Both the position numbers and the translations under genes were made by a program. From positions 1 through 64,000 of the forward strand of contig JAUYAK010000026.1 in assembly GCA_030693515.1 (NCBI GenBank): a stretch of DNA of 64,000 bases. The letters run 5' to 3'. Of this stretch, positions 18,430 to 28,245 are shown piece by piece. Source of the stretch: Opitutaceae bacterium (lineage in GTDB: Bacteria; Verrucomicrobiota; Verrucomicrobiia; Opitutales; Opitutaceae). The notes below the pieces were generated by a model, which ran no database searches, had not been told where the DNA came from, and saw only the letters and a program-made list of their open reading frames with translations. How positions within the stretch are numbered: the stretch's first letter is position 1; each line of letters opens with the position of its first letter.

Positions 18430-19188
18430 TCAGTCTTCGCCGAGGTGGCGGCGCAGGATGGCGACGAGGGCGGCGTGGTCGCAGACCGCGATGGATTTTG
18501 GGGCGACGGCGATCAGGCGCCGGTCACGGAGTTTGGCCAGCGTGCGAGAGAGGGTCTCGCTGCTCGTGCCAAGTTCGGCGGCGAGCACACGTTTCGTGGA
18601 TCCGAGTTCGACGACGGTGGCGCCACCGGCTACCGACGGGCACCGCTTGAGCAGCCAGTTGAGGAAGCGCGTCTCCACGTCCTTCAACGTGAGATCGTCG
18701 AGCATGCCGACGAGCACGCGCAGGTGGCTGCTCATCGAGCCGAGCATCCGCAGCGCCAGGTCGGGCCGGCGGCCGATCAGCGCGAGGATCGGTGCCTTGG
18801 GGATGAGCAGCACCGTGGTCGCCTCGACCGCGCGGGCGTTGGCCGGGTAGCCGGTCGGCGAGGCGAGCGAAGCCTCGGCGAACGATTCGCCCGCACGAAA
18901 GATATGGATGACCTGCTCCTTGCCGGCGACGCTCACGCGATGCACGTTGATCGCGCCGCTTTGCACGAGATAACAGCCGCGCGCGGGTTCGCCTTCGCGA
19001 AAGAGGCAGCCGCCATTCGCCAGTTTCTGCGAGACGGTGAACGCCGCGATCGCGGCGAGATCCTCCGTCGGCAGCCCGGAAAAAAGCTGACTGCTGCGCA
19101 GCGAACCCATGAGCCCGATGAGTTTCAAATCGGCGGCGTGCGCGGCGGGAATCATGCGCAGGAAATTGATAGGGCACGCGCGCCGCAA
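18430..19188 (-). CDS. Crp/Fnr-family regulator, DNR/NNR-like
   Basis: A 252-residue regulator with a cyclic-nucleotide-binding-type sensor fold (about 35-150, with REGEPARGCYLVQSGAINVH) and a C-terminal winged helix. Recognition-helix residues E211, S214 and R215 (S-E-T-L-S-R) match those of FNR/DNR, which read TTGAT-N4-ATCAA. The N-terminal cysteine cluster of FNR is absent, so a DNR/NNR-like nitric-oxide or haem-linked sensor is more likely than an oxygen-sensing iron-sulfur protein (inference). The TTG start at 19188 is chosen because a second, truncated copy at 25254-25610 has the same leader bases, a TTG at the same place and the same spacing to ADLKL. An ATG at 19155 is the alternative. 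An imperfect FNR box lies upstream at 19237-19250. Confidence 0.9.
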   Translation of the reverse strand: MRRACPINFLRMIPAAHAADLKLIGLMGSLRSSQLFSGLPTEDLAAIAAFTVSQKLANGGCLFREGEPARGCYLVQSGAINVHRVSVAGKEQVIHIFRAGESFAEASLASPTGYPANARAVEATTVLLIPKAPILALIGRRPDLALRMLGSMSSHLRVLVGMLDDLTLKDVETRFLNWLLKRCPSVAGGATVVELGSTKRVLAAELGTSSETLSRTLAKLRDRRLIAVAPKSIAVCDHAALVAILRRHLGED

Positions 19189-19236
19189 GTCGCGTGAAAA
19201 AACACCGCAAAATCATGCGGCAAATTTTGGCGGACC

Positions 19237-19250
19237 TTGATCCACGTCAT
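19237..19250. promoter_or_regulatory. imperfect FNR/DNR box between regulator and nrdJ
   Basis: TTGATCCACGTCAT matches the TTGAT-N4-ATCAA consensus at 8 of 10 fixed positions. It lies in the divergent gap. For the minus-strand regulator a class II start (-41.5) would be near 19202, 14 bases before the TTG. For nrdJ it would be near 19285, just before the second ATG at 19295. The -10 matches are weak in both directions. Confidence 0.45.
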
Positions 19251-19267
19251 GGTTCGCCGCCACGGGC

Positions 19268-21784
19268 ATGCTACCTTCCGCACTCATCGTTCCCATGAGC
19301 ACCGTCCTTTCGCCCGTCCGTTTCACCTCGCGTCCTCCGTCCCTTGCCATCCCTCCGTCCGCACGCAGTGTCATCAAACGCGATGGCAGCACCGTCGCCT
19401 GGGACGCCGCCAAGATTAACCGCGCCATCGCGCTCGCCTTCTACGAAGTGCAGCACGGCAACACGCCCAACCCCGACCGCGACAACGCCGCCGCCCGCCA
19501 CGGCGTCGATGCGGCGACGTTTCAAAAGGCGCGGCACATCACCACCCGGGTCGCGCATATGCTGGAGCTTTTCTACCGCGCCGGCCGGCATCCGACCATC
19601 GAGCAGGTGCAGGACAATGTGGAAAAGGCCATCGCCGCCGAGGGCGAATGGCCCGTGGCCCGCGCCTACATTCTCTACCGCGCCGCGCAGAATGCCCGGC
19701 GGCTCTATCACCACGCGGAAAACGGACTCGGCGACTATATCGCCATCGCCAAATACGCGCGCTACCGCGCCGACCTCGGCCGGCGCGAGCTCTTCGTGGA
19801 GGCGGCGCAACGCGTTCACGCCATGCACCGCGAATTCTTCCGCGCCCGCCTCCGGCAGCCGCTGCCCGCGCCCCACCGCGACTCCCCGGTCGCACGGGAA
19901 GACCGGTCGCGCCTCATCCAATGGCTGGCCGAGAACCGCACGCTCGGAGACGCGCTCGACCGGGCCTTCGCCGCCGTGGGCGAAAAACGGGTGCTGCCTT
20001 CGATGCGTTCGCTGCAGTTCGGCGGCGAGGCCATCCTCCGGAACCACGCGCGGCTTTTCAACTGCGCGTTCAGCCCCGTGGACCGCCTGGAATTTTTCCG
20101 CGAATATCTCTTCCTCCTGCTCGCCGGCACCGGCTGCGGCTTTTCCGTGCAGCGCCACCACGCCAATCGCCTGCCACCGCTCCCGCCTCGCGAAGCCAAG
20201 CTGGATCTGCCGGCGGTCCACCACTCGATCGCGGACACCATCGAGGGCTGGGCCGACGCGCTCCACGCGCTCGTGCGGAGCCACTGGGAAAGCTTCATGG
20301 TCGAGTTCAATTTTTCCGCGGTGCGCCCGCGCGGCAGCGCGCTGCGAACCTCCGGCGGAAAAGCCCCGGGACATCTCCCGCTGAAGCAGGCGCTGGTCGA
20401 CATCGAGGCCGTGCTGTCCGGCGCCGCCGGCCGCAAGCTGCGCCCGATCGAGATCTATGACATCTGCATGTTCGCCGCGCGCTCCGTGCTCAGCGGCGGC
20501 ATCCGGCGCTCGGCGACCATCTGCCTGTTCTCGCCCGACGACCAAGAGATGATGGATGCCAAGACCGGCGACTGGTTCGAAAAAAATCCCCAGCGCTCCG
20601 CCTCCAACAACTCCGCGGTCGTGCCGCGCGCCGCAGGCGACGACACGCTTTTCCGCCGGCTCTTCGCCGCGCAACGCGAGTTTGGCGAGCCTGGCTTCTA
20701 CTTTGCCGACGACCCCGATCACGGGTGCAATCCGTGCTGCGAGATCGGCCTGCATCCCGTCGTGGCGGGTGAGCTGGACGACGCGGCCGAGGTCGCGAAG
20801 CTCCGGGCCTGCGGCTACACCGGCCCGACCGAACCCGGCACGCGGCTCAGCGGCTGGCAGATGTGCAACCTGAGCACGATCAACGGCGCGGCGGTGGAGA
20901 ATGCGGAGGATTTCCTCACGGCCTGCTTCGACGCCGCCATCCTCGGCACCGTGCAGGCGGCCTACACGGATATTCCTTATCTCGGTCCGGTCACCCGCTA
21001 CCTCAATGAGCGTGATGCGTTGCTCGGCGTCTCAATCTGCGGGTTTATGGACAACCCGGATCTGCTGTTCGATCCGATGCTGTTGGAGCGGGGCGCCCGG
21101 CTCGTGCGCGCGACAAACCAGATCGTCGCGGAGGCCATCGGCATCCGGCCCGCGGCGCGCGTGACGTGTGTGAAACCCGAGGGCACGGCTTCTTTGCTAC
21201 TGGGTGCGGCCTCAGGCATCCACCCTCACCACGCCCGGCATTACTTCCGTCGTGTGCAGGCCAACCGCCGCGATCCCGTTTACCGGCATTTTGCCGCGGC
21301 CAACCCTCACCTGACCGAGACCTCGGTTTACCGTCCCGACACGGACGACGTCATTATCTTCGCCGTCGAGGCACCGCCGCATGCCATCCTGCGCGACGAG
21401 ATCGGGGCGGTGGAATTCCTACGGCTGGTGCAGAGGGTGCAGCGGCACTGGGTGCTGGTGGGCGAAGCGGAAACCACCCGGTCACCCGGTCTGCACCACA
21501 ACGTCTCCCACACTTGCACGGTCAAGCCCGACGAGTGGGAGGCGGTCGCGGACTTCATCTGGCGGCACCGGGCGGGCTTCACCGGCGTCGCGCTGCTCGG
21601 CCACGACGGCGACAAGCGTTACGCGCAGGCACCCCGCGAAGCCGTGGTGACAGAGGCGGACATCGCGAAGTGGAACCAGTTGAAATACCACCGGGCGGAC
21701 TACACGCAGCTCGCGGAAAAATCTGACGAGACTGCGCTGAAGGAAGTGGCCGCCTGTGCGGGCGGCGCCTGCGAACTCGTCTGA
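19268..21784 (+). CDS. nrdJ: adenosylcobalamin-dependent ribonucleoside-diphosphate reductase (class II)
   Basis: This 838-residue enzyme converts ribonucleotides to deoxyribonucleotides without oxygen by using coenzyme B12. An ATP-cone is visible at about 33-135 (SVIKRDGSTVAWDAAKI...). The catalytic part carries an LFNC motif near residue 266, the NPCCEIGLHP motif near 488, and the redox-active C-terminal pair C830/C835 (C-A-G-G-A-C). No NrdB-type radical subunit gene is nearby, consistent with class II. ATG at 19268 or 19295 are both possible; an FNR-type promoter would favour 19295. It is divergent from the DNR-like regulator, which suits oxygen-independent dNTP supply. pdxH follows 7 bases later. 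Confidence 0.93.
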   Translation: MLPSALIVPMSTVLSPVRFTSRPPSLAIPPSARSVIKRDGSTVAWDAAKINRAIALAFYEVQHGNTPNPDRDNAAARHGVDAATFQKARHITTRVAHMLELFYRAGRHPTIEQVQDNVEKAIAAEGEWPVARAYILYRAAQNARRLYHHAENGLGDYIAIAKYARYRADLGRRELFVEAAQRVHAMHREFFRARLRQPLPAPHRDSPVAREDRSRLIQWLAENRTLGDALDRAFAAVGEKRVLPSMRSLQFGGEAILRNHARLFNCAFSPVDRLEFFREYLFLLLAGTGCGFSVQRHHANRLPPLPPREAKLDLPAVHHSIADTIEGWADALHALVRSHWESFMVEFNFSAVRPRGSALRTSGGKAPGHLPLKQALVDIEAVLSGAAGRKLRPIEIYDICMFAARSVLSGGIRRSATICLFSPDDQEMMDAKTGDWFEKNPQRSASNNSAVVPRAAGDDTLFRRLFAAQREFGEPGFYFADDPDHGCNPCCEIGLHPVVAGELDDAAEVAKLRACGYTGPTEPGTRLSGWQMCNLSTINGAAVENAEDFLTACFDAAILGTVQAAYTDIPYLGPVTRYLNERDALLGVSICGFMDNPDLLFDPMLLERGARLVRATNQIVAEAIGIRPAARVTCVKPEGTASLLLGAASGIHPHHARHYFRRVQANRRDPVYRHFAAANPHLTETSVYRPDTDDVIIFAVEAPPHAILRDEIGAVEFLRLVQRVQRHWVLVGEAETTRSPGLHHNVSHTCTVKPDEWEAVADFIWRHRAGFTGVALLGHDGDKRYAQAPREAVVTEADIAKWNQLKYHRADYTQLAEKSDETALKEVAACAGGACELV

Positions 21785-21791
21785 CCCGGCC

Positions 21792-22388
21792 ATGAGCGAT
21801 CCACCGTCCATCGCAACGGATCCCTTCGTGCAGTTCGCCGAATGGCTCAAGCTGGCGACGCAATCGGACCTGCCGGAGCCCACGGCGATGGCCGTGGCCA
21901 CTGCCGATGCGGGCGGCGTGCCCAATGTGCGCATGCTCCTCCTCAAGGGCGTCGATGAGCGCGGTTTTGTCTTCTATACGAATCTGGCCAGCCCCAAGGC
22001 CGCCGAACTCACGGTCAATCCCCACGCCGCGCTCTGCTTCTATTGGGACCGGATCAAGCGGCAGGTGCGAGTGTCAGGTCCGGTGGTCCGGGTCACCGAC
22101 ACAGAGGCCGACGCTTATTTCGCCACGCGCCCGCGGCTCAGCCAGATCGGGGCCTGGGCCTCGCACCAGTCGCAGCCGATGACCGACCGTTTCGAACTCG
22201 AGCGCAACTGCGCGTCCGAGGCCCTGCGTTTTGGCCTCGCCGCAGTGCCCCGCCCGCCCAGCTGGTCCGGCTACCGCGTGGTGCCGGACACGATGGAGTT
22301 CTGGCAGGAGAAACCGTTTCGGCTGCACGAGCGCGTGCGGTTCACCCGGACCGGAGGGACCTGGGCGGCGCAGCGGATCTTTCCCTGA
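21792..22388 (+). CDS. pdxH: pyridoxamine/pyridoxine 5'-phosphate oxidase
   Basis: A 198-residue FMN-dependent enzyme making pyridoxal 5'-phosphate. Family motifs are seen: VPNVRMLLLKGVDERGFVFYTN (FMN and substrate binding), ALCFYWDRIKRQVRVSG, the SQIGAWASHQSQP segment, and a C-terminal ERVRFTR...QRIFP that replaces the common R-L-x-P ending. The ATG at 21792 gives a normal family length; the in-frame ATG inside nrdJ at 21756 would add a non-conserved extension. Probably co-transcribed with nrdJ. Confidence 0.94.
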   Translation: MSDPPSIATDPFVQFAEWLKLATQSDLPEPTAMAVATADAGGVPNVRMLLLKGVDERGFVFYTNLASPKAAELTVNPHAALCFYWDRIKRQVRVSGPVVRVTDTEADAYFATRPRLSQIGAWASHQSQPMTDRFELERNCASEALRFGLAAVPRPPSWSGYRVVPDTMEFWQEKPFRLHERVRFTRTGGTWAAQRIFP

Positions 22389-23832: not shown

Positions 23833-25198
23833 TCAGACGGAGCGCGAATGTCGGTTCGACCCAGCCGAATGGCGGGCGTCGAAGCAGACGGCGGTGCTGC
23901 GCAGAAAAAGCCGGCCAAGGTCGGTGACGCGCAGGCCGCCGGGGGAGAGTTGCACGAGACCGCCGTCGGCGAGCGGCCGAAGCTGCGCGAGTTCGGCCGC
24001 GTAGCGGGTGGCGAAATCGAAGCCGAACTCGCGCGAGAGCGCGGCGTAGTCGAGGGCAAGGTGGCACATGACGCGCATGATGATCTCGCGGCGGCGATGG
24101 TCCTCCTCCGTGAGCTCGAGACCGCGGTCGACGGGTGCCTCGCCGCGATCGAGCGCTGCATAGTAGGGCACGAGGGTCTTGTGATTCTGGCGGTAGCTGA
24201 ACGGCGTCTGCGAAATCGCGGATATGCCGACGGCAAGAATCTCCGCGCCGGCACGCGTGCTGTAACCCTGGAAATTCCGCTGGAGGGTGCGCGCGGCCTG
24301 CGCGACGGCGAGTTCATCGGTCGCGCGGGCAAAGTGGTCCATGGCGATGTAATCGTAGCCCCGGCTCGTGAGCGTCTCGGTGATGAGCTTGAGCATCGCG
24401 AGCCTGGCCTCGGGCGAGGGCAGCGCGGATTCGCGCTCGAAAAATTTCTGGGCGGGTTTCATCCAGGACACGTGCGCATAGCTGAAAACGGCGAAGAGGT
24501 CCGGGTGGTTCGAGCACCTGCTCGAGGGTGTCGCGGAACGTGTCCACGGTCTGATGCGGCAGGCCGTAGATGAGATCGAGGTTGATGGAGGTGAAGCCCT
24601 CGTCACGCAACCGGGCGATGGCCTGTTCGGTCATGGCGCGCGGCTGGATGCGATGGACGGCGAGCTGCACCTGCGGATCGAAATCCTGCTCGCCGAGGGA
24701 GGCGCGCGTGAAACCGCCCTCACGGAGGGCGGCGATCTGCGCATGCGAGAACCGCCGCGGGTCGATTTCGACGCAATGCTCCGCCTCGGGCGAGAAACGA
24801 AAATGCCGGCGGGTGATCGCGGCGAGGCGCGCGAGCTGTGGCGGCTGGAAAAACGTGGGCGTGCCGCCGCCGTAGTGGAGCTGCACGACGCGACGGTCCG
24901 CATGGACGCGCGGGGCGAGGAGCGCGACCTCCTTTTCGAGGTAGTCGAGGTAGGTGTCCGACGATTGATGGTTGAGCGTGATGACGGTCGTGCAGCCGCA
25001 GAACCAGCAGAGCGTTTCGCAGAACGGGAGATGGAAGTAGAGCGAGAGCGGGAGGAAAGCGTCGGCGTTGGATTGATCGACGTGCTGGAGGAGCGGCGCG
25101 GGGGAGCCGAAATCCCGAAACTCCACCGCCGTGGGATAGAAGGTGTAGCGCGGAGCGGAGGTGTCGTATTTCCGGACGAGTGCGAGGTCGCACGGTGA
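23833..25198 (-). pseudogene. hemN: oxygen-independent coproporphyrinogen III oxidase, frameshifted and lacking a start codon
   Basis: Radical-SAM enzyme HemN of haem synthesis. The first part (25198-about 24515) reads DLALVRKYDTSAPRYTFYPT..., with the CETLCWFCGC iron-sulfur motif (CX3CX2CXC), HYGGGTPTF and YGLPHQTVDTF. The second part (about 24514-23833) continues as HPDLFAVFSYAHVSWMKPAQKF in another frame. Joining them gives about 455 residues, the normal HemN length, with a net 1-base shift near 24507-24515. The alignment length suggests two missing bases. In addition a TGA directly precedes the codon at 25198 and no ATG/GTG/TTG is in frame before the conserved YDTSAPRYT; the first in-frame GTG (25126) would cut this motif off. 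Either a real pseudogene or two sequence errors. Confidence 0.8.
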
Positions 25199-25253: not shown

Positions 25254-25610
25254 TCATTTCCGCGCGCCCGGACCGGCCTGCCGCGCACGGCGAAACTGTA
25301 CAGTCCCGTGAAAGAGATCAGACTCGGGCGGCGCAGACGCATCGTTGAAGCAGGTCAAGACTCGCCACACGGCCGCCTCCGCTTCGCCGAGGTAACACCC
25401 GCGGGCCGGCTCGCCTTCGTGGAACAGGTAGTCGCCCTTTGCCAACGTCTGCCGAACGACAAAGGCCGCGATGGCGGACAGATCTTCGGGAGGCAGGCCC
25501 GAGAAAAATTGGCTGCACCGCCGCGAACCCATGAGTCCGGCAAGTTTGAGATCGGCCGAGCGCGACGTCGAAGGCCTCACGCGAAAACTCAAAGCCGTCG
25601 GACGCGACAA
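25254..25610 (-). pseudogene. truncated Crp/Fnr-family regulator (second DNR-like copy)
   Basis: A 118-residue frame whose first part matches the intact regulator at 18430-19188: ADLKLAGLMGSRRCSQFFSG against ADLKLIGLMGSLRSSQLFSG, continuing to EGEPARGCYL. After that the similarity stops and a 45-residue unrelated tail follows, so most of the sensor domain and the whole DNA-binding domain are gone. The 20 or so bases in front of its TTG are nearly identical to those in front of the intact gene (25608-25628 against 19186-19207). It is probably the leftover of a duplicated regulator, located just upstream of the damaged hemN. Confidence 0.7.
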
Positions 25611-25631: not shown

Positions 25632-27089
25632 TCAACACGCCGGAACGAGGCCGGTGAGCATGAATCGCAGCACGTCCGCCGCGCCGTAGGATTGTTCGCC
25701 GTCGGCCAGGAATCGGCGCAGAACCCGGACGTCCTCGCCGGCAGTCACAATCGCGGGTTCCGCGACGCCGGCCACGAGCGACTGGCCGAGGCCGATGGCG
25801 GCCATGAGGCCGTTGCAGAGACATTTTCGGCCGACGGCATCGGCGGGGTCGCCGCCCTTGCGGACAAAATCGCCGACGGGTTCGGCGGGGCAACGGTAGC
25901 CGACGGAGCCATCGGGGTTTTCGTAGGGCTGGCGCAGAAATCCGAGATCGCAGACGCGGGCCCGATGTTCGTAAACCGCCGGGACAGAAACGGTGCCGGA
26001 AAGGTCAACGACCTTAAAAGGCATGCCCGTGGGAGAAGCGCGCGGATCAGTCCGGAGTTCAACCGTGCCGGACGCACTTTGGCGCAACACCTCCCGCTTT
26101 GATTCCGGTCGCAGTCCCGACTCCTCGCAAAACGCGAAGGCCGTCCCGATCTGCACCCCGGTCGCGCCAAGGGCGAGCGCCGCCCGCAACTGAGTCGGAT
26201 GAGCATAGGAGCCGGCCAGCCAAAACGGCAGGCCGAGCGCGCGAATCACCCCGAGATCCGCCGAGTCGCGCGGGCTGTAGATCGGTTCGCCGAGCGCGTT
26301 GAACTGCGGGGCGCCGCGCGGGGGCGCGTTGTGACCGCCGGCAGTCGCTCCTTCAATGACGAGGCCATCGATCTTGCCACTGGCCTTGCGAGCGAGGGTT
26401 GTGGCGAGCGCGGAGGACGAGACGATCGCCAGAAATTGCGGGCGACGCAAGGCGGGCACGGGCGTGCCGGTGAAGTGCGCCGGATCAAATCCGATCCGGT
26501 GCTCGACGCCGGGCGTCTCCCCGGCGACGGCGATGCGCAGTTCCACCTTTTGTCCGCGCGCGAGTTGGTCGAGAATGCCGGGGATGGCGCGCGGGATACC
26601 CGCGCCCATCAGCACATAGTTCACGTCGGCAAGCATCGCGCCATAGAGCGATGCGAGCGTGGGCAGCTGGATCTTCTCGAGGAGATTGAGGCCGACGACG
26701 CCCGCGTGGCCCTCCTTGGCGAGCCAAACTTCCACGAAGTTGGCCACGATGGTCAGTGCCACGAGGTCGTCCGGTGGAGCGACCGAATACATCGGCGCGA
26801 GACGGTAGGGCTGGCCCGGAGACCGGCCGCCGGCGAGGAAGTAGCGCGCCGCGATCGCCTGCGCTGCGGCTTGCAGCGGACAATGCGCAAGGGCGCGGCG
26901 GATGTCTCCGCCGGGGTCGCCGTCCTGCAACCGACGCACGAGCACCGCGGCCAGGGCCGTGCCGGAAACGACACCGAGGTGGCCACCCGCAGCGACGGCG
27001 CGGGCGAGTTTCCAGTTGGAAACGGCGACGCCCATGCCGCCTTGGATGATCACGGGGAGCGCACGGGCCGGAGGGTGGGAATTTTCCAT
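25632..27089 (-). CDS. nitronate monooxygenase / 2-nitropropane dioxygenase family
   Basis: A 485-residue FMN-dependent TIM-barrel enzyme. It opens with VIIQGGMGVAVSNWKLARAVAAGGHLGVVSGTAL, the classical NMO start, and has IVSSSALATTLARKA, the phosphate-binding IEGATAGGHNAPP and LALGATGVQIGTAFAFCEESG. It is longer than usual (about 330-370), with a C-terminal Cys-rich stretch YRCPAEP...GRKCLCNGLMAA. The ATG at 27089 is chosen since the longer frame overlaps the preceding gene. NMOs detoxify alkyl nitronates; its place in an FNR/DNR-controlled run suggests a role under nitrosative or anaerobic conditions (inference). Confidence 0.85.
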   Translation of the reverse strand: MENSHPPARALPVIIQGGMGVAVSNWKLARAVAAGGHLGVVSGTALAAVLVRRLQDGDPGGDIRRALAHCPLQAAAQAIAARYFLAGGRSPGQPYRLAPMYSVAPPDDLVALTIVANFVEVWLAKEGHAGVVGLNLLEKIQLPTLASLYGAMLADVNYVLMGAGIPRAIPGILDQLARGQKVELRIAVAGETPGVEHRIGFDPAHFTGTPVPALRRPQFLAIVSSSALATTLARKASGKIDGLVIEGATAGGHNAPPRGAPQFNALGEPIYSPRDSADLGVIRALGLPFWLAGSYAHPTQLRAALALGATGVQIGTAFAFCEESGLRPESKREVLRQSASGTVELRTDPRASPTGMPFKVVDLSGTVSVPAVYEHRARVCDLGFLRQPYENPDGSVGYRCPAEPVGDFVRKGGDPADAVGRKCLCNGLMAAIGLGQSLVAGVAEPAIVTAGEDVRVLRRFLADGEQSYGAADVLRFMLTGLVPAC

Positions 27090-27120: not shown

Positions 27121-27564
27121 TCACGGCTCGGAATACTCGGCCCAGCTGCTGCTGGTTTCCGTGATGCGCACGCGTTCGAGGCGCACGCCCGCGGCAATGC
27201 GCGGGGTTTCACGCGACCTGAGCCGCCGCTGCAACTCCGCGAAAATAGTTTGGGCCATGACCTCGCTCGTCGGATCGCAACCCGCAAAGGGGATGATTCG
27301 GGGGCCGTAAGTTTTTTGATAGAAGGAAAACTCCGGGTCGGCGGTGTTGAGGCAGAGCGCGTGATCCCACGCCTCCAGGAAACCCTGCAGCGACTCTTTG
27401 ACCGCCTTGAAGTCGCAAACCATGTCGTTCGCATCAAGGGCCTCGGCCGCGAGAATCACGTCAACGCGGCGGCTGTGACCGTGCGGGAAACGGCATTTGC
27501 CAAGGTGCTTCGACAGCATGTGGCCGCTCTCAATTTCGAAACTTTTGCAAATCCGGAAGGGCAT
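27121..27564 (-). CDS. 6-pyruvoyl-tetrahydropterin synthase / QueD-like
   Basis: A 147-residue tunnelling-fold pterin enzyme. Zinc ligands H15 (ESGHML), H28 and H30 (CRFPHGHSRRVDV) and the catalytic-type C24 are in the expected order, followed by MVCDFKAVKE and LDHALCLN-like WDHALCLN. The family includes queuosine precursor synthase QueD and PTPS homologues. No other queuosine gene is nearby and the neighbours are cupin, DUF2249 and NMO genes, so a dedicated pterin role for this operon is possible. The ATG at 27564 is preferred over an upstream start that adds eight residues. Confidence 0.85.
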   Translation of the reverse strand: MPFRICKSFEIESGHMLSKHLGKCRFPHGHSRRVDVILAAEALDANDMVCDFKAVKESLQGFLEAWDHALCLNTADPEFSFYQKTYGPRIIPFAGCDPTSEVMAQTIFAELQRRLRSRETPRIAAGVRLERVRITETSSSWAEYSEP

Positions 27565-27590: not shown

Positions 27591-27938
27591 CTAGGCTTTC
27601 GGCGGCGCCGCTTGCGTGATAAGAAGCGTGAGGTCGGCCGTGGCGCGGACCGCGTGAGAAAGCTTCGGCGGCATATGCAGCAGATCGCCGGCGGTGAGGT
27701 GGCGCGTCTCGCCATTGAGATTGAAGTCACAACTGCCGGCGAGCACCTGGACCAGCGCGCGAGCGGACGTGGTGTGTTCGGACAACTCCTGGCCCGTAGC
27801 AAATCGAAACAAAGTCACGCGGAGGCCGGGCGCGGTGAGCACCGCCTGGCTCACAATCCCGTGCGCGACGCCGCCGGGGGCGGCCAGCAGCGGGCAGACG
27901 TCCGCCGTGTCGGAGGGGAGGAGTGCCGCGGCCTTCAT
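27591..27938 (-). CDS. small cupin-domain protein
   Basis: A 115-residue single-domain cupin. The two cupin boxes are visible: G-x-x-L-x-x-H-x-T-S-A-R-A-L-V-Q-V-L-x-G (a His-containing motif 1) and L-T-A-G-D-L-L-H-M-P-P-K-L-S-H-A (motif 2, typical metal-binding His). Its ATG overlaps the stop of the DUF2249 gene by 4 bases (ATGA), so translation is coupled. Such small cupins beside DUF2249 proteins are frequent in FNR/DNR-regulated, denitrification-linked clusters (family knowledge); the ligand is unknown. Confidence 0.82.
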   Translation of the reverse strand: MKAAALLPSDTADVCPLLAAPGGVAHGIVSQAVLTAPGLRVTLFRFATGQELSEHTTSARALVQVLAGSCDFNLNGETRHLTAGDLLHMPPKLSHAVRATADLTLLITQAAPPKA

Positions 27939-28177
27939 GCGTGATCCTTGCGCCAGAAACCCACGGCCCAGGCCCCGTCATGCCGGCGCTCGATCGAGGC
28001 CTCGAAACCCTCGCTCTTCAGCAACTCGATGAGGGGCGCCGGCAGGAAGGGCGCGAGGACGGTCAACCCCTGGCCGGCCGCCAGCGCACCGATCCGCGCG
28101 CGGATGACGCCACAGGGCTCCTCCCCTCGCGCGAGATACGGGCGGACATCAAGCGTATTGAAGGAGTCCGGTTTCAT
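27935..28177 (-). CDS. DUF2249 domain protein
   Basis: An 80-residue protein made of one DUF2249 domain (LDVRPYLARGEEPCGVIRARIGALAAGQGLTVLAPFLPAPLIELLKSEGFEA), a TusA-like fold often found with nitric-oxide and haem-related genes. The ATG at 28177 is the first start inside the conserved domain; it lies 20 bases after the predicted FNR-dependent transcription start at 28197. It is the first gene of the minus-strand run and overlaps the cupin gene by 4 bases. The biochemical role is not established. Confidence 0.85.
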   Translation of the reverse strand: MKPDSFNTLDVRPYLARGEEPCGVIRARIGALAAGQGLTVLAPFLPAPLIELLKSEGFEASIERRHDGAWAVGFWRKDHA

Positions 28178-28196: not shown

Positions 28197-28245
28197 TGGC
28201 GGGAAGATACCTGGTAAAGGCGGGTTGCGCCTTGATCCAAATCAA
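28197..28245 (-). promoter_or_regulatory. class II FNR/DNR-dependent promoter
   Basis: TTGATCCAAATCAA at 28232-28245 is a perfect match to TTGAT-N4-ATCAA. On the minus strand a -10-like TATCTT occupies 28209-28204, predicting transcription start at 28197. The box centre (28238.5) then falls at exactly -41.5, the class II activation distance known for FNR. The first codon of the DUF2249 gene follows after 20 bases. The DNR-like protein at 18430-19188 has the matching recognition residues. Confidence 0.8.

Follow-up and report, generated by a model that had tools for sequence, protein, structure and literature searches.

The palindrome upstream of a DUF2249-cupin-PTPS-NMO gene run in an Opitutaceae genome is very likely a class II activator site for one or more DNR-like Crp/Fnr regulators, which would drive expression of the four genes. 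It lies at 28232-28245 of the window, the term used here for the whole 64,000-nucleotide stretch of DNA that was analysed. The operon is very probably, on the basis of gene order and sequence likeness, a rearranged part of the nitrite/nitric oxide (NO) cassette of the Opitutaceae, the cassette of the nitrite reductase gene nirK, with a QueD-type gene (PTPS) and the NMO gene recruited to it. In the mechanism proposed, a regulator active most likely on NO at low oxygen, as DNR is, would bind as a dimer to TTGAT-N4-ATCAA centred at -41.5 and touch RNA polymerase at a promoter that has no -35 box, so that DUF2249, cupin, the QueD-type PTPS and NMO would be transcribed from about 28197. The same regulator family would turn on a nirK-nirV-SCO-DUF2249-regulator operon on another contig of the same genome (C94) via a promoter of the same kind. 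DUF2249 and cupin would act as accessory genes of the nitrite/NO pathway, whilst the QueD-type gene and NMO would be later recruits.

The operon and its predicted promoter

The DUF2249-cupin-PTPS-NMO run had been named as such in a first-pass annotation made from the DNA of the window, and it was borne out here with Pfam support for genes that all lie on the minus strand (Table 1). The NMO product also resembles, weakly, solved structures of FabK and of 2-nitropropane dioxygenase. The genes are tightly packed: DUF2249 and cupin overlap by 4 nt, cupin and PTPS are separated by 26 nt, and PTPS and NMO by 31 nt. A terminator scan found none from DUF2249 to the start of the NMO gene; one weak site lies inside the NMO gene and another 22 nt past its end, and these two are fewer than the 3.9 found in shuffled sequences. 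The four genes would be carried on one transcript, and induction of the operon by anoxia or NO is predicted.

Table 1. Positions of the genes and of the predicted promoter elements in the window
Feature	Position	Strand	Basis
DUF2249 gene (COG4309-type)	27935..28177	-	Pfam PF10006, E 1.4e-12
Cupin gene (Cupin_2), in relatives repeatedly found with DUF2249, nirK and the regulator	27591..27938	-	Pfam
PTPS-fold gene, QueD-type (6-carboxytetrahydropterin synthase) subfamily	27121..27564	-	PF01242, E 7.5e-29
NMO/FabK-like flavin enzyme gene	25632..27089	-	PF03060, E 7.2e-17
Truncated Crp/Fnr regulator gene, third copy; remnant where L110 has an intact regulator	25254..25610	-	
hemN (oxygen-independent coproporphyrinogen oxidase), broken across two frames; in relatives it accompanies the window's PTPS subfamily	23833..25126	-	
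Intact DNR-like Crp/Fnr regulator gene, with E-T-L-S-R in the recognition helix; may read the box	18430..19155	-	Pfam
DNR/FNR-type activator box TTGATTTGGATCAA (orientation toward the operon), then GGC	28232..28245	-	Sequence scan
-10 hexamer TATCTT at the class II distance from the box (32 nt between centres)	28204..28209	-	
Predicted transcription start, 20 nt ahead of the DUF2249 ATG	28197	-	Inferred from spacing
Near-match TTGATCCACGTCAT, between the regulator and the B12-dependent ribonucleotide reductase gene	19237..19250	.	Box scan

Upstream of 28177 the minus strand runs TTGATTTGGATCAA-GGC...-TATCTT-...-ATG, with the box centre 61.5 nt from the DUF2249 ATG. The box, TTGATCCAAATCAA, has 0 mismatches and is the sole exact match to TTGATNNNNATCAA in the 64 kb of the window. 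Its centre (28238.5) and that of the hexamer (28206.5) are 32 nt apart, which places the box at -41.5 given a start at 28197. Both elements had been proposed beforehand, the first as a perfect 14-mer and the second as a TATCTT -10 box at 28209-28204 with the box centre at -41.5 from the predicted start, and both are upheld, the 14-mer being one of three perfect sites in the genome. The same class II spacing of 32 nt is found at nirK of the same genome and in the relative L110 described below. A simple sigma-70 scan found no promoter at the DUF2249 promoter, as is expected of an activator-dependent promoter that has no -35 box. Weak box matches alone say little, since at up to two mismatches the window holds 18 compared with 11 expected. 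The box-like TTGATCCACGTCAT at 19237, a possible site for nrdJ or for the regulator gene, has no -10 hexamer at the exact class II spacing on either side, the nearest being one base off.

Two observations concern the surrounding genes. The split in hemN reflects either decay of the gene or a fault in the assembly: by eye, no clear start codon can be made out in its start region, and the hemN genes found beside PTPS in relatives are unsplit. The regulator, the B12-dependent ribonucleotide reductase and pdxH lie together at 18430-22388, and the same trio adjoins DUF2249-cupin at two loci of relatives (L272 and L097).

A promoter family in the genome and its relatives

Perfect TTGATNNNNATCAA sites number three in the 6,646,699 bases (6.65 Mb) of the window's own genome, and the relaxed palindrome TTGAYNNNNRTCAA occurs at 10 sites, three of which have TANNNT 22 nt after the box when both orientations are considered. 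The exact box-N22-TANNNT arrangement is accordingly found at three places; allowing one mismatch adds one more, and a reversed control of the same arrangement gave one match at the one-mismatch looseness. The three exact full promoters precede DUF2249 in the window, nirK on C94 and a gene on C38 near a cbb3-type oxidase. The nirK promoter reads TTGACTTGGATCAAGGC...TAGAGT, with its box at G000:C94:18473-18486 (= L055:13474-13487), whilst the C38 promoter stands before the gene of a 432-aa protein that has no Pfam match, some 1.1 kb ahead of a fused cbb3-type oxidase gene (COX1 + FixO). Two further sites were not accepted as clear members of the regulon. The perfect TTGATNNNNATCAA at C33:142934-142947 has no class II -10, with TAGGGT following 17 nt after the box, and the perfect site at C118:16667 lies at the junction of two genes that resemble parts of an ABC transporter. 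The C33:142934 site stands directly before a gene that by eye resembles a sigma factor.

Related genomes were examined through 83 cupin loci from 82 genomes (1,048,010 bases; G234 counted twice), with cupin matches down to E 8.7e-20. The set excludes the window's own genome and weaker matches as well as L348, which has no cupin, and it counts once L110 and L270 (G225:C69), which are the same contig by sequence. These loci contain 105 exact TTGAYNNNNRTCAA sites compared with 0 of the reversed pattern, and for 57 of the 105 a query-set gene begins 15-260 nt downstream, compared with 7.5 expected; the sites come from related genomes and are not independent, so these counts are not numbers of independent events. 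At 40 of 59 distinct sites, which include those of the window and of its own nirK, TANNNT stands 22 nt beyond the box (32 nt between centres), compared with four cases in all at the 44 other offsets. When up to one box mismatch is allowed before nirK, DUF2249, cupin or regulator, the 22-nt spacing accounts for 58 gene-site pairs and all other spacings from 12 to 44 for seven; these are pairs, so one box may count for two neighbouring genes. A full promoter at that looseness precedes at least one of these four genes in 49 of the 83 loci, and nirK carries the same promoter type in 23 of the 33 relatives' loci that contain it. The 34 loci without a full promoter before any of the four genes include some that end at contig ends and one, L093, from the window's own genus.

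Further regularities are seen around these promoters. All 58 distinct full promoters have G as the second base past the box, and in 43 the box is followed by GGC, a feature that was not a selection criterion. Promoters in which DUF2249 is the first gene number 14 in the 83 loci, the contig of L110 included; the box lies 56-65 nt from the start in 12 of them, at 72 nt in one and at 237 nt in one. In our reading the box/-10 set marks a genuine family of class II promoters, with the window's promoter as a typical member. That the palindrome arose by chance and has no function is very improbable. TTGAYNNNNRTCAA does occur 10 times in the genome, with seven of these sites falling outside the full promoter model, but the exact -10 spacing, the GGC extension, the conservation in L110 and the family-wide enrichment all tell against coincidence, and with three perfect genome sites, three exact full promoters and the enrichment in relatives this explanation was rejected. 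The box, its spacing, the promoter family, the gene linkage and the conservation in one relative all come from comparison of sequences, and on that footing the promoter reading is right, with comparative support. It provides a precise promoter model, TTGAYNNNNRTCAAGGC-N19-TANNNT, for presumed nitrite/NO control in a family for which most of what is known comes from metagenome assemblies.

At 13 of the 58 distinct full promoters the first ATG lies exactly 6 nt after the -10 hexamer, that is, at the predicted +1, and leaderless transcripts are predicted for these. Seven of the 13 stand before cupin (examples of such cupin promoters are L316, L331, L332, L337, L340 and L342), one before nirK and five before other sequence.

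Linkage to nirK and a DNR-like regulator

Cupin relatives were found in 101 of 252 genomes of the family and regulator matches in 169 of 252, weak matches included. Within reach of the cupin in the 83 loci, DUF2249 is present in 49 (within 1.5 kb), the regulator in 46 (6 kb) and nirK in 33 (7 kb), and nirK or the regulator is near the cupin in 58 of the 83; many loci end at contig ends. At a limit of 6 kb, PTPS neighbours the cupin in only one of the 83 loci and NMO in three. The fullest order in relatives is nirK-nirV-SCO-(often another gene)-DUF2249-cupin-regulator. In the window's own genome the usual unit is split: C94 carries nirK-nirV-SCO-DUF2249-regulator, and the window carries DUF2249-cupin together with PTPS, NMO and the regulator remnant. 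The C94 nirK encodes a copper nitrite reductase (TIGR02376, above the curated cut-off), and downstream of it lie a gene with an FGE-sulfatase domain, which we take to be nirV, then SCO1/SenC, DUF2249 and a Crp/Fnr regulator. The C94 copies of DUF2249 and of the regulator are 68% and 70% identical, respectively, to those of the window. The DUF2249-cupin pair is a recurrent, uncharacterised part of the nirK clusters of the Opitutaceae, and any part that cupin, DUF2249, QueD or NMO would play in the response is presumptive.

Several observations were made beside this linkage. The NirK encoded on C94 has a cytochrome c domain at its C-terminal end; a haem domain in that position is already known from verrucomicrobial NirK (PMC4770552). 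The cassette neighbourhood of one relative includes a bacterial-type globin (L282:8202-8603). Downstream of the cupin at L322 lies a protein whose first 100 residues are like the YtfE/RIC iron-sulphur repair proteins, below the curated cut-off, and between DUF2249 and cupin at L273:3732-5198 lies a protein like ammonia-forming cytochrome c nitrite reductase, again below the curated cut-off.

The gene order of the window operon recurs in one relative, Opitutus sp. GAS368 (L110), where DUF2249-cupin-PTPS-NMO is followed by an intact regulator that is 80% identical to that of the window. The four-gene order is shared despite protein drift to 66-86% identity. Upstream of DUF2249, L110 has TTGACCTATGTCAA and TAGTGT at the same spacing, with the box centre 60.5 nt from the ATG. 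Compared with the window, the L110 box carries a paired change from TTGAT/ATCAA to TTGAC/GTCAA, in both half-sites, and its spacer has diverged. The first-pass annotation had named a search of related genomes for the four-gene order and the box as a check on its reading, and L110 supplies both, with a covarying box at a near-equal distance from the ATG. At another locus with DUF2249-cupin-NMO (L269, genome G268) there is no box at the expected place; a one-mismatch site lies about 140 nt upstream and does not have the -10 spacing.

A regulator at 18430-19188 with the E-x-x-S-R residues had likewise been put forward, and its identity is confirmed as a Crp/Fnr protein with an ETLSR helix: the frame begins at a TTG, with an alternative ATG at 19155, and carries S-S-E-T-L-S-R-T. 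E-x-x-S-R is present in 46 of 46 regulator stretches (45 from the loci and that of the window), and the C94 copy also has ETLSR. As the reader of the box, the window's regulator is of the right family, but the genome has a second intact copy, in the nirK operon, besides the fragment at 25254-25610, and either intact copy may be the one that binds.

FNR has four cysteines that ligate its [4Fe-4S] cluster, three of them near the N terminus. This oxygen-sensing set is not found in the regulator family: all 46 aligned stretches have at most four cysteines, with at most two in the first 40 aligned residues, and the cysteines of the window's regulator are only at 50, 61, 172 and 225. When solved structures were searched with the regulator, DNR (3dkw) was third at E 2.2e-21, slightly below 3h3z and 3fx3 (each a 'cyclic nucleotide-binding protein'), and FNR-type entries scored E 3e-12 and weaker. 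Because of the few cysteines and the rank of DNR above the FNR-type entries, the regulator is taken to be DNR-like, most likely with a response to NO, the signal that we infer for the operon. FNR/DNR-type control had been suggested for the box; the box and the regulator family agree with this, but FNR-like sensing does not, the regulator being closer to DNR and without the FNR cysteine set. Oxygen control through an FNR-type iron-sulphur regulator, in place of NO, is unlikely. It would accommodate three genes suited to low oxygen, those of the B12-dependent ribonucleotide reductase, hemN and the cbb3-type oxidase, which are found close to such sites or within the cluster, and the DNR motif is itself similar to the FNR consensus box (PMC1274295). 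However, the linkage is to nirK, and just two proteins of the genome score above the cut-off of HTH_Crp_2, the Crp-type model searched, in a family with the low cysteine counts given above.

A DNR-like, NO-responsive reading places the operon beside known systems. In the DNR/NnrR regulons of denitrifying Proteobacteria, an NO-responsive activator of the DNR type acts with the FNR-like box TTGATnnnnATCAA (Rodionov et al. 2005, PMC1274295). Features of these regulons seen here are an FNR-like palindrome upstream, an E-x-x-S-R regulator and the same promoter on nirK, and the nir genes, with COG4309 (DUF2249) and hemN as extra members, are shared (PMC1274295). The Opitutaceae case differs in its host phylum (Verrucomicrobiota), in the frequent cupin, in the QueD-type PTPS and NMO and in the TTGAYNNNNRTCAAGGC-N19-TANNNT promoter. 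DUF2249 (COG4309) and hemN have been in print since 2005 as members of DNR/NnrR/NsrR regulons (PMC1274295), and hemN is reported as a member of an NnrR regulon (PMC6710368); the word 'cupin' is absent from the main text of PMC1274295. In the DrpAB system of Thermus thermophilus, DrpA is a protein of the DUF2249 type and DnrT is required for drp expression, but in contrast to the window operon no cupin is named in the parts of that paper drawn on here, and DrpA is proposed to be a nitrate sensor (PMC6282519). Haloferax mediterranei has four DUF2249 genes, two of which lie near nirK and nor, and denitrifying conditions activate every one of the four; these genes are archaeal and have another promoter motif (PMC11218638). 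The literature searched, at the level of titles and abstract openings, yielded no description of the window operon or of a cupin-DUF2249 regulon. The cupin as a frequent member of a DNR-type regulon was not found described there, and we class the operon with the DNR-type regulons, as a variant form. The suggestion that it may be an undescribed stress operon therefore holds in part: the recruitment of PTPS and NMO, with PTPS at this place in one other genome, stands apart, but the remainder is a variant of a known nitrite/NO cassette.

The QueD-type gene under the predicted promoter

Nine of the 132 genomes sampled from the order, the window's own among them, encode the distinct subfamily to which the window's PTPS belongs (E < 1e-40). 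When named genomes were scanned, a PTPS relative was encoded in 326 stretches, of which the best 80 were examined: a queC, queE, queF or folE2 gene lies within 4 kb on the same strand in 28, hemN in 21, both in none and neither in 31. The queuosine-gene linkage in 28 of these best 80 loci identifies the subfamily as QueD-type. QueD (6-carboxytetrahydropterin synthase) shares this linkage, but the window's gene sits in a DNR-type operon. The window PTPS scores 77.8 bits against NCBIfam TIGR03367 (QueD), below the curated cut-off of 89.25, and three scanned members from que-linked loci also fall below it. The best solved match of the subfamily profile is 7v0f, a 6-carboxytetrahydropterin synthase. 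The hallmark residues of QueD (HxH, a Cys four residues before it, D-H and E) are present, and C24, H28, H30, D67, H68 and E143 are invariant in nine of nine aligned sequences. These conserved residues have catalytic roles in QueD.

Elsewhere in the genome queC-queE lie on C75, and a second PTPS protein is encoded on C94 beside folE2 and an SDR gene; it matches structures of 6-pyruvoyl tetrahydropterin synthase (1b66, E 2.3e-34) better than those of QueD. With queC-queE present and the second PTPS nearer the 6-pyruvoyl type, the window PTPS may be the QueD of its own genome. PTPS proteins outside the subfamily may also serve as QueD, since a QueC match occurs with a single PTPS outside the subfamily in five of 16 genomes searched (G035, G050, G066, G102 and G126).

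Control of PTPS by the box as a general trait was rejected. An exact TTGAYNNNNRTCAA within 400 nt before hemN was found in none of the 20 examined of the 21 hemN-PTPS loci (at L125 the start is off the contig), one locus having a one-mismatch box within that distance, and none of the 28 que-linked loci has an exact TTGAYNNNNRTCAA within 300 nt before PTPS. With no exact box at hemN-linked or que-linked loci, DNR-type control of PTPS looks peculiar to the window's lineage. The same results, together with the rarity of PTPS and NMO near the cupin, make it quite possible, if short of probable, that the NO response comprises DUF2249 and cupin only, with PTPS and NMO as read-through passengers that have no function in it. 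Against this stand the four-gene order kept in L110 at 66-86% protein identity, the tight spacing in the window and the NMO found near the cupin also in G268 (L269) and G149 (L339). A more far-reaching proposal is that QueD, apparently the genome's only QueD-type protein, has moved under a DNR-type promoter with DUF2249-cupin, tying a queuosine step to NO or denitrifying conditions; we offer this tentatively and consider it rather doubtful. If true, a step of tRNA queuosine modification would be coupled to NO or denitrifying conditions, and the proposal would join NO signalling to a QueD-type tRNA-modification enzyme in a form open to testing.

A TTGATTTACGTCAA site also occurs at L048:13722 and at L050:9616, each in another genome of the order, between the PTPS-like gene and a divergent operon that by eye resembles one for a heme-copper oxidase.
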